Positions 36,801 through 43,260 of a stretch of DNA of 49,698 bases are shown here, in pieces. Position 1 is the first letter of the stretch, and each line of letters starts with the position of its first letter. Source of the stretch: Nonomuraea corallina (lineage in GTDB: Bacteria > Actinomycetota > Actinomycetes > Streptosporangiales > Streptosporangiaceae); NCBI RefSeq assembly GCF_027620315.1, contig NZ_JAPNNL010000033.1, forward strand, positions 1-49,698, written 5' to 3'. The notes beneath the pieces are model-generated. The model was not told the DNA's origin. It saw only the letters and a list, made by a program, of their open reading frames with translations, and did no database searches. Made by a program: the position numbers and the translations under genes.

Positions 36801-36967
36801 ACCAGCCGCAGCGCCCGCTCCACCAGGCCGGGCTCGACCGCGCCGAGCCGTTCCAGCCGGGAGACGCCGGCGATGTTGTAGAGCGGCACGCCGGGCAGCA
36901 GCCTGGTGAGGAACCAGACGCGTTCCTGCGCGTAGGAGGCGGCGAAGGCGTCTTCGGTCAAAGGCAT
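33890..36967 (-). CDS. NRPS module C-A-PCP, predicted glycine-activating
   Basis: 1025 residues. Condensation domain about 8-430, with HHAVFDA (142-148): the catalytic HHxxxD is intact but the usual following Gly is Ala. Adenylation domain about 455-920, with YTSGSTGVPKG, YGPTE and YRTGD. Code read by alignment to GrsA: D638 I639 L642 Q676 L697 G699 M721 I729 W730 K913, matching the known Gly code. The PCP has GGHSM with the phosphopantetheine Ser at 967. An acidic tail (IDELSDEEAAALM) resembles a docking peptide. The ATG at 36967 overlaps the fusion gene by 10 nt. No thioesterase, so it probably hands its chain to the fusion protein. Earlier in-frame starts lie inside the upstream gene. Confidence 0.95.
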   Translation of the reverse strand: MPLTEDAFAASYAQERVWFLTRLLPGVPLYNIAGVSRLERLGAVEPGLVERALRLVAERHEPLRTRLEPRGDAVMQLIAPEASVRLAHTDLSGRPEQDRAADLAALAAADAAELFALDQAPLWRTRLVRLGGGQWRLVLVAHHAVFDAWSMRIFTEDLAEAYHALRENRPPRFAELAVQYADYAVWQREQGFEASLAYWRERLAGAAPLELPTDRPRPAEFGYAGANHPFTVPAELTARVSELARRTGSTSFMVLLTAFAALLARWSGQSDVVIGSPVAGRDQPELSPLIGMFVNTLPLRADLSGDPSFAEALERVRTTVVDALDHQDVPFARIVSELNPPRDPSRTPLYQVAFNQLPYDVRGQIGTGTTKTDLTLEIQNADGDLSAWLEYATDLYDPATIDRLAEGFLALLGAATADPALPLSRLPLMPEGRRREAVTSGHGPRLPYPGVPVHALVARHAAALPGAAAVVVPHEGRTLTYGELDERAAALARVLLSRGVAVESPVAVCLPPGGDLVIALLAVLKAGACYVPLDPRYPVERLRFMLADSEAALALTTPELAGRLPGVPVLTDLAQSPPDERPLPEVSPGHLAYVIYTSGSTGVPKGVMVPHRGVVNLVTSLGFTAAERMLLLTPMSFDIAALELFGPLLSGGTVVVAPPEAKLGPVLAEADVRTVQAPPSVLEEIVEELPVGLPRVLSGGEPLGPAFARRLREVAGEVHNMYGPTETTIWSLTHVTRPGEQSVPIGLPVANTTVHVLSEAMEPVPPGVVGELWLGGDGLARGYHRRPSLTAQRFVPDPFGPPGARLYRTGDLVRRSAGGAVEFVGRVDDQVKVRGVRVELGEVEAALTAHPGVSRAVAAVRDDAPGGRALVAYVDEHAPVAELRAYLQDRLPSTMIPSLYLAVGSFPRLPNGKLDRSALPAPVPAPAAEALPPRTAAEELVHEIWSEVLHRDGFGVEEDFFDLGGHSMLGTRVVARLCSELEIELPLNILFLTRTVRRLAAAVEERLAAEIDELSDEEAAALMEA

Positions 36968-42900: not shown

Positions 42901-43260
42901 CTGCCCGGCGTCGTCCACCACGACGCGCGGGCGGCCGTCGGCGTCGGCGGGGAAGCGGGTACGCAGGATCTCGTGCCGGGCCACGACCGCCTCCAGGGCC
43001 CGGCGCAGCCGTGCCGGGTCGAGGTCCCCGCGCAGGCGCACCACGAAGGGGATGGTGTAGGCGGCGGTCCCGGGAGCGAACTGCTCCATGAACCACAGCC
43101 CCTCCTGGGCGTGGGTCAGGGGGATGTCCGCGCCGGCGGGACGGCGTGGGATCGCGGCCGGCTTGCCGTTCGACCTGCGGCGAAGGCGTTGTTCCAGCAG
43201 AGCTCGTTTGGTGTCAGAGAGGTGAGCTCCGCCTGAGGCCGGCTCCGTCGTGGTCGTCAA
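36958..43260 (-). CDS. NRPS-transporter-kinase fusion: C-A-PCP-TE-MFS-APH, predicted serine-activating
   Basis: One uninterrupted 2100-residue frame. C about 45-460 with HHIAGDG (173-179). A about 490-950, code D663 V664 W667 H706 I731 S733 L757 V765 D766 K944, matching Ser. PCP 965-1040 with Ser997 in GGHSL. Thioesterase 1060-1300, whose elbow GHCGIG puts Cys1136 in place of Ser; Asp1254 and His1284 complete the triad. MFS 1349-1765, about 12 TM, motif A GALVDRHGKR, EntS-like. APH-type kinase 1800-2100 with Lys1846, HHDFHERN (Asp1997) and IDVEN (Asp2019). TTG start: GGAG lies 6 nt upstream and a TAG in frame directly precedes it. Codon 531 is TTA. An even number of TM helices leaves NRPS and kinase both cytosolic. 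It probably makes, releases, exports and phosphorylates a small Gly-Ser type product. Confidence 0.95.
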   Translation of the reverse strand: MTTTTEPASGGAHLSDTKRALLEQRLRRRSNGKPAAIPRRPAGADIPLTHAQEGLWFMEQFAPGTAAYTIPFVVRLRGDLDPARLRRALEAVVARHEILRTRFPADADGRPRVVVDDAGQVELRGVSAPDEAAARELLSAELARPFDLAAGPPVRALLVRLAGDDHVLLVALHHIAGDGWSLEILAGELRALYAGEEPPELALQYADFAVWQRGRPAEEADLAYWRERLAGVPPIELPLHGRRGAVATFAGDSHTFRLGADELAAAHRLAREHDATLFMVVLAVYQVLLARHSGQSDFAIGTPVGGRPRSELEPLIGMFVNMLAMRADLEDDPTFAELLARVRRSTLDAFAHQRLPFEQLVGELGLARDVSRTAVFQVALALRSYDEDSAAWPGLTVEPYPLTAGAAPFELELFLTERGGGLDGLFVYNRDLLARDTVEELGDRFGTLLRAALADPDLRVSDLELLTGPEREHVLALAAGPSVPYPADRTLGELFEEQAARTPDAVALEFGGLRLSYAELERRSGELARRLRELGARPGVRVAVAMERSLDLVVSLLAVVRAGAAYVPLDPDYPRERLDFMLRDARAAILLPEETVREREDLPDTPLTPACPAYMIYTSGSTGRPKGVPNSHAAIVNRLDWMQRRFGLTGADAVMQKTPAGFDVSVWEFFWPIITGARLVVAAPGGHRDTAYLRDLIVSSGVTTMHFVPSMLAAFLEEEDVERCGSLKRVICSGEELPVAVAARFFERLPEVELHNLYGPTEAAVDVTAWRCSPGESRIPIGHPVQNTRIHVLDARLRPVPPGVTGELYIGGVQVAIGYHDRPALTAERFLPDPYGPAGSRLYRTGDLARTDRDGAVEFLGRADDQIKIRGQRVEPGEVEAVLREQPGMREALVVADADGLVAYVVTEADPAGLRARLKELLPDHMVPTAYVRMDALPLSPNGKVDRSALPAPTRSSGGGALPGTPAEIAVAQIWSELLGVPGIRADDDFFDLGGHSLVAIQVVARIRKLLAPAEGRSVGVMDLFQHPTVRGLAQLIEGPAPAEDRPRELLHRLTRSRATPALTLVCFPYGGGSALVYQPLADALPEECALYSMAFPGHDPGRPDEPVMPLEEVIERAVQEIVDGIEGPIALYGHCGIGGAVTAEVARRLEARGREPVAVYIGAIFPFARPEGRIAGPLGRLLRTDRLRGDRSYENRMKAMGNDISGLDEEQVKFMVRNQRRDTLIAEEAFTRMLSQQARPLRAPVIAVVGEQDPATDYYRERYREWHFLSETTALVVLDEAGHYYLKYRADDLAQVLTNTHIALEYGAADELSRQARGPAAGWWVEKTSTRGGQDDPPPRKRAPEPGMRRFLAVSAFQLLSMVGTAVTDFAIPIWVYTTTGSLLNFALLVALAIMPGVLAAPLIGALVDRHGKRAMMALGNCAAGAVQLVFGVLLWTGTLATWHIYPLVALLSITLVFQRLAYTAALPQLVPKQYLGHAAGVVQLLAGTSQFVAPLLAVALLAGIGLGGILVIDVISFGVVLAALALIRFPATMALERRETLAAELAGGFRMSLGNRHLRSALLYFAVLNVMLAAVLMSISPLVLSFADLDTAGRISFIGGLGATLGGVIVALWGGPRRRRMRAVLLGTLVLSLFAVVTGMYASPLVVGLGAFGLWCSLSVVNGVFMTIIHVKVPQRFHGRVMAFNQMISWSTLPVGMAVVAPLGERLLEPLLMPGGALAGTVGAVIGVGQGRGIAFMYVLLGLGIAVLALVAMRIPVLAGFDEAVPEADPDDLVGARALRERAGNVVSLAWSAPAFAKALTMPLSAAKAGELLGEPVEKVLLRTGGEISAVYEVRTADRELIVKLYPGLFTERMRKERQVYDLLARTGAAAPAVVLADDSRRDLPQAYLVMTKVPGRPLSQVSAGLDRDTVERLYRDMGRLLRTVHSVTAPAFGPIDGVTEPTNDAYVGGQFELKAAHFAEFGGDPGLHAALLARLSADRHLLARCATPVLLHHDFHERNVMVARRDGRWELTGLIDVENALGGDPLMDLARTDYFAVRDDPLRRRALFEGYGDLPGDRDERLAFYRLYHALDQWHWLATIGEVSALEPITREIRACL

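Follow-up and report, generated by a model that had tools for sequence, protein, structure and literature searches.

A peptide synthetase module, thioesterase, exporter and APH-type kinase joined in one frame in Nonomuraea corallina and its relatives

Several described systems resemble parts of NRPS1, a gene of Nonomuraea corallina which lies in the 49,698-nucleotide stretch of DNA analysed here (the window) and encodes a nonribosomal peptide synthetase (NRPS) with condensation (C), adenylation (A), peptidyl carrier protein (PCP), thioesterase (TE), major facilitator superfamily (MFS) exporter and APH-type kinase domains in one chain. EntF is a serine-loading C-A-PCP-TE synthetase and EntS is the MFS exporter of its product, and the two are separate proteins. 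Cph (capreomycin) and AmiN (amicoumacin) are separate proteins as well; together with ComG (corramycin) they are kinases of the APH type, as is the last domain of NRPS1. ObiF1, the beta-lactone-forming NRPS of obafluorin, is not known to have an exporter or a kinase and loads another beta-hydroxy amino acid. Its TE shares with that of NRPS1 a Cys nucleophile, Gly at the usual place of Asp and an Asp 30 residues before His, while ObiF differs in carrying an MbtH-like and an aryl-activating domain (PMC6668435, in the portion available). According to the available portion of PMC10996006, ComG and Cph act on peptide antibiotics; AmiN is the amicoumacin kinase by its PDB title.

The C-A-PCP-TE-MFS fusions have the same first five domains, the same Cys TE and the same conserved tail after the MFS domain, but they end after this tail without a kinase, and 79 of the 89 listed carry an Asp-like A code instead of a Ser-like one. 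NCBI names several of those listed 'non-ribosomal peptide synthetase/MFS transporter'. Annotated fusions of C-A-PCP-TE-MFS are widespread, and the kinase marks one subfamily of them. NRPS-TE-MFS fusions named in databases and separate peptide kinases were already known, and what is unusual here is the added kinase. The first-pass annotation of this DNA had regarded the whole all-in-one chain as unfamiliar, a view that holds for the kinase and has to be given up for the common five-domain part.

The six-domain frame and its conservation

NRPS1 and its parts were located as follows.

36958..43260, minus strand: NRPS1, C-A(Ser-like)-PCP-TE(Cys)-MFS-APH, 2100 amino acids (aa), TTG start, one stop-free frame
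41845..43128, minus strand: condensation domain, residues 45-472, HHIAGDG motif
40429..41778, minus strand: adenylation domain, residues 495-944, with the serine-like pocket code DVWHISLVDK
40150..40350, minus strand: PCP, residues 971-1037, GGHS
39394..40071, minus strand: thioesterase, residues 1064-1289, Cys1136, Gly1163, Asp1254 and His1284, an ObiF1-like triad
37993..39216, minus strand: MFS exporter domain, residues 1349-1756, predicted to have 12 helices and both termini inside
37786..37992, minus strand: MFS-to-APH linker, conserved in sequence, with a length that hardly varies (71, 76 or 77 across 32 rows)
37075..37785, minus strand: APH-type kinase domain, residues 1826-2062, HHDFHERN, with Lys1846, Asp1997, Asn2002 and Asp2019

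The TTG start is preceded by GGAG 6 nt upstream (43270-43267), and the computed mass of the product is 227.7 kDa. Pfam placed C (45-472), A (495-820, with A_C at 878-944), PCP (971-1037), TE (1064-1289), MFS_1 (1359-1691) and APH (1826-2062) in this order, every match being above its curated cut-off, so that the earlier claim of a single chain without a stop over 2100 codons was borne out by frame and domains alike. With C-A-PCP-TE-MFS in one frame and an extra C-terminal APH, NRPS1 belongs to the NRPS-TE-MFS fusion family, and HHxxxDG and the carrier GGHS, the marks of a functional NRPS module, are both present. The exporter reached 58.5 bits with PF07690 (cut-off 33.4) and 28.8 bits with MFS_3 (cut-off 27), while the DHA3-type H+ antiporter model TIGR00900 gave 145.2 and 150.4 bits, below its cut-off of 319.6; no sequence relative of this domain was found in the PDB at E up to 10. 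Third-position GC was 0.92-1.00 per 75-codon block (0.83 in the first block), and no break was seen at either junction. An antisense frame of 1547 aa on the plus strand (37027-41670) overlaps NRPS1 and is taken as a by-product of the 73% GC.

The MFS-APH half was searched against billions of proteins and gave 1028 matches. Among the best 120 were the window's own protein (P0002), the fragments P0009 and P0014, and 28 further proteins with the same six ordered domains, for which the first-pass annotation had proposed a search; from P0033 onward, the proteins among these 120 had no APH. The source names of the six-domain proteins include Nonomuraea, Planobispora, Planomonospora, Bailinhaonella, Streptosporangium and Rhizohabitans, and the order of motifs was kept when these relatives were aligned to the window's protein. 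A near-full match to the 765-aa MFS-APH query was found in 14 of 297 genomes of the family (7 genera), in every case inside a stop-free frame of 2100-2410 aa, and the catalytic motifs of C, PCP, TE and APH were kept. Within the genus the same APH was present in 7 of 54 genomes (E up to 1e-30), always fused, in frames of 2100-2219 aa; in a sample of 396 genomes from the phylum, the kinase was found at E up to 1e-30 only in the window's own genome. The nearest relatives belong to Nonomuraea, with N. harbinensis (L025) at 94% over MFS-APH. Ka/Ks between the window and five relatives, in a comparison that leaves out the rows L030 and L031, was below 1 for every domain, including APH and its linker. 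The six-domain chain has repeatedly been deposited in databases under generic names, and in literature searches on NRPS-MFS or TE-MFS fusions, whose listings were empty or confined to fungal or unrelated papers, no description of it appeared, most subscription journals being outside their coverage.

An artefact of assembly or annotation might be suspected, as the window sits in a draft genome (7.56 Mb, 369 contigs) and four short deposited records hold only parts of the fusion. Against this, the same frame is open in 14 of 14 carrier genomes, and the TE-to-MFS linker, which is not conserved, differs in length among 32 aligned rows and yet stays in frame. A sequencing error causing read-through, or homologues always split at the junctions, had been named as grounds for abandoning the fusion; both are ruled out by the intact frames of the homologues (14 of 14 carriers in the family and 7 of 7 in the genus fused), and the artefact retains practically no probability. 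The four records (P0122, P0126, P0137 and P0172), which comprise the kinase alone, MFS-kinase or MFS alone, were not placed on genomes and may be split, frameshifted or contig-end copies.

The structure model of TE-MFS-APH was too uncertain for a fold search and was used for helix boundaries alone. The helix count from this low-confidence model is even, and basic residues concentrate on the predicted cytosolic loops, which supports the earlier proposal that the assembly line and the kinase probably both lie in the cytosol. The same exporter was listed with TauD, PCP, TE and MFS domains in a Dactylosporangium protein (P0229), and with MbtH and MFS domains in P0155.

Predicted substrates, the partner gene and the release domain

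The A codes were read as the letters at the GrsA positions, the fragments P0009 and P0014 having no A code. In all 30 kinase-fused rows with an A domain the NRPS1 code was DVWH[IV]SL[VI]DK, which we take to be serine by the code tables, so that among the aligned rows the kinase was found on Ser-coded synthetases only. In the kinase-less TE-MFS rows the code was Asp-like in 79 of 89 and Ser in one. By the code table, the terminal residue in front of this TE would be Ser-like in the kinase-fused group and Asp-like in those 79 relatives.

A second synthetase gene, NRPS2, follows directly.

33890..36967, minus strand: NRPS2, C-A(Gly-like)-PCP, 1025 aa, without thioesterase, ATG at 36967
35663..36952, minus strand: condensation domain of NRPS2, HHAVFDAW
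34229..35596, minus strand: adenylation domain of NRPS2, with the glycine-like code DILQLGMIWK
33959..34150, minus strand: carrier domain of NRPS2, by Pfam

NRPS2 begins before NRPS1 ends, with 10 nt shared between the two, and has GGGAG 8 nt upstream of its ATG. The second synthetase was found downstream of NRPS1 in each of the 15 distinct loci (16 rows, since L025 and L040 are the same place), beginning -6 to +18 nt from the last codon of NRPS1 in 14 of them and about 219 nt on in L030. The genes of the flanks were called by a GC-frame heuristic, by which genes were missed or mis-started (NRPS2 itself was missed in L029, L030 and L031 and found there by tblastn). Apart from NRPS2, each cluster of flanking genes is limited to at most 3 of the 15 loci, the recurrent ones being mostly sister-species or generic ABC-transporter genes; the synthetase unit thus consists of two genes, which span about 9.4 kb (33890-43260). 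The A code of NRPS2 was DILQ[LF]G[ML]IWK in 16 of 16 rows (one row without the last letter), presumably glycine by the code tables, and its C domain has HHxxxDA instead of HHxxxDG in all 16. Conserved tails are present at the C-terminus of NRPS2 (L-S/T-D/E-EEA) and at the N-terminus of NRPS1 (near LSDxKRALLEQRLRRR, in the rows complete at this end), and we take them to resemble docking tails. As NRPS1 alone carries a TE, Gly would come first, followed by Ser and then by release. MbtH genes were present in 14 of 14 carrier genomes, none of them closer to the unit than 10 kb, judging from the coordinates.

In 121 of 121 aligned rows, with and without kinase, the TE has Cys for Ser, Gly 27 residues on and Asp 30 columns before His (Gly1163 and the shifted Asp1254 in NRPS1), which are the features of a TE of the ObiF/SulM type as defined in the available portions of PMC6668435 and PMC11298585. 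The former gives Cys1146, Gly1173, Asp1254 and His1284 with a moved Asp for the TE of ObiF1; according to the latter, the ring-formers ObiF1 and SulM share Cys plus moved Asp, and the uncharacterised AB3403 has Cys alone with Asp at its usual place. The shifted Asp is also described, in a source available in part, for RifR-type proof-reading TEs. The best solved relative of the TE was ObiF1, both by single sequence and by profile, and the TE of SulM (8w2c) was third by profile; EntF was not among the TE matches in this search of solved structures. The triad type of ObiF1 and SulM, which close four-membered rings, suggests that the release domain here may be ring-forming, not hydrolytic.

Ring formation of another kind would be expected if the unit made a siderophore like enterobactin or bacillibactin, in which Gly-Ser would carry an aryl cap and the TE would form a trilactone. 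The Ser-loading C-A-PCP-TE part does resemble EntF (648.7 bits with NF007605), Gly followed by a hydroxy residue is the order of DhbF, and dihydroxybenzoate (DHB) ligase scored above the cut-off (723.55 bits) in 4 of the 14 carrier genomes and 531-617 bits in six more. However, the EntF score is far under its cut-off of 2400, EntS (NF007792) reached 33.2 bits against 324, and EntF has its triad Asp at the usual place, as far as the partly available source goes, besides being absent from the TE matches. In addition, the best DHB-ligase score was at most 245 bits in four carriers, namely the window's genome (G000), G275, G234 and G095. A DHB-capped siderophore is disfavoured, and a siderophore of this kind seems very improbable.

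The kinase and the fate of the serine hydroxyl

The last domain of NRPS1 belongs to the APH fold family (PF01636) by score (114.5 bits, cut-off 23.2), by its catalytic HxDxxxxN and by fold. The fold search listed 50 matches of many kinase kinds with similar scores, including Cph and AmiN and not including ComG, and no substrate was singled out. A standalone relative of the kinase (L056:13701-14963), which matches at 42% over 98% of the query with part of the linker before the kinase included, is encoded on a Streptomyces plasmid of 2.35 Mb; the surrounding 28.9 kb showed no NRPS domain. Another (L057) lies in Sinorhizobium, where no NRPS is among the 16 genes annotated. Recent fusion would be indicated by a separate APH next to kinase-less TE-MFS genes; a search of the eight loci L041-L048 gave nothing but a piece of 29% identity, located at the far end of L043.

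From what is observed, namely the fusion in one frame, its conservation, the intact catalytic motifs and the paired gene, we tentatively favour the reading that NRPS1 and NRPS2 join Gly and Ser, that the Cys TE releases the chain as a beta-lactone, that the tethered exporter removes it and that the kinase is likely protective. The chemistry of the unit is predicted from sequence. NRPS2 would load Gly, either free or N-terminally acylated, and its C-terminal tail would dock on the N-terminal tail of NRPS1, which would load Ser and condense Gly onto it. The ObiF1-type TE is predicted to take the chain on Cys1136, where the Ser hydroxyl would attack, and the MFS domain, with 12 helices and both ends cytosolic, would export the product, to judge from family and topology. 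In the weakest step, APH, held at a near-fixed distance from the inner face of the exporter, might phosphorylate the hydroxyl of unexported product or of the nascent chain. As in the first-pass annotation, we infer that the kinase may act on the product and that free product would not build up in the cell.

Several points weigh against beta-lactone release with a protective kinase. The sole side-chain hydroxyl of the predicted Gly-Ser chain is that of Ser, and because both ring closure and phosphorylation need it, they are mutually exclusive on one molecule; a ring closed through it leaves the kinase no obvious hydroxyl. Ser-coded C-A-PCP-TE-MFS synthetases without kinase exist (P0120, L060 and L061), so such a synthetase can do without the kinase; near L060 and L061, neither a relative of APH or NRPS2 nor a separate APH was found in the 19.9 kb examined (of which the upstream side makes up 2-3 kb only). 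All 89 kinase-less TE-MFS rows (P0033-P0121), the 79 Asp-coded ones included, have the Cys triad of NRPS1 as well. As Asp has no beta-hydroxyl and TauD is rarely adjacent, this TE class need not make beta-lactones, and with unmodified Asp the Asp-coded kinase-less relatives would make none. The APH domain is far below every resistance-kinase cut-off listed: 30.8 bits against 390 for capreomycin phosphotransferase (NF041268), 46 against 205 for APH(3') (NF033068) and 38.6 against 640 for APH(7'')-Ia (NF000137). No conserved phosphatase was found next to the unit among the 15 loci, where a scheme of phosphorylation, export and reactivation would suggest one, and the mean pLDDT of the TE-MFS-APH model is as low as 54.9.

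An adjacent TauD hydroxylase was tried as an explanation for Asp in front of a ring-forming TE and rejected. Among the places listed for 14 kinase-less genomes, it adjoins the TE-MFS place in G038 only and is about 20 kb off in G157; the check covered at most a few TE-MFS places per genome, and others may have been missed. In G038 the TauD-type hydroxylase (C13:17057-19326) is directly downstream of the TE-MFS synthetase.

Three resolutions of the conflict over the serine hydroxyl remain: there is no ring, the phosphate is part of the product, or there is a switch between the two. Without a ring, the TE would hydrolyse the chain and the fused kinase would phosphorylate the free Ser hydroxyl as ordinary self-resistance, like Cph for capreomycin or ComG for corramycin. 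No competition for the hydroxyl is then required, and hydrolysis by this TE class is possible, as the Asp-coded relatives share its triad. The restriction of the kinase to Ser-coded rows (30 of 30, with the Ser code in 1 of 89 kinase-less rows) and the presence of Cph and AmiN among the fold matches listed are also in its favour, as is the report, in the available part of PMC10996006, that ComG, an APH-family kinase of an NRPS/polyketide synthase cluster, inactivates its own peptide product. However, the TE is closest to ObiF1, with EntF missing from its matches, and no reactivating phosphatase recurs beside the unit. Hydrolysis with self-resistance is a serious candidate, though on balance unlikely.

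The missing phosphatase fits with a biosynthetic role of the kinase, in which the phosphate would stay in the exported compound or a carrier-bound phosphoserine would be an intermediate. Such a role would also accord with a kinase that is covalently part of the assembly line through a conserved linker and is paired with a Ser module in 30 of 30 rows. But no phosphoserine-using domain, for example a lyase, was found by Pfam in NRPS1 or NRPS2, and the fold gives no substrate, the 50 listed matches scoring alike; we consider this role rather improbable. The switch, to which we give a slim chance, would make the chain an antibiotic machine in which TE and kinase compete for the Ser hydroxyl, giving a reactive Gly-Ser beta-lactone when the exporter is free and harmless phosphoserine otherwise, so that the warhead would be armed at the exit.

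Surroundings of the unit and significance

Between the synthetases and a group of catabolic genes lies a large regulator with HTH, BTAD, NB-ARC and TPR domains (25663-29181), of which a 35%-identity relative was found in L024. The region 3728-20288 contains an IclR regulator, a branched-chain-type ABC importer, amidase, CoA-transferase III, hydantoinase A and B, and citrate-lyase-like and transketolase-like genes, and looks like an amide or hydantoin catabolic block. Two DUF5648 proteins (20486-22234 and 29211-29804) were also identified, one of them joined to a WbsX-type domain.

As a rule the synthesis, release and export of a product and the protection of its producer fall to separate proteins, and their coupling is assumed; here they are found in one chain, self-protection being the likely role of the kinase, in at least six genera. 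This one-chain layout makes the coupling testable through cutting or swapping of domains, and the unit, with two genes in about 9.4 kb, is small enough for expression in a laboratory host to be feasible. The kinase-fused group is predicted to make a family of Gly-Ser beta-lactones or phosphopeptides, and no product of it was found in the literature searched. In addition, the large TE-MFS group with its ObiF-type Cys triad provides candidates for the mining of strained rings.
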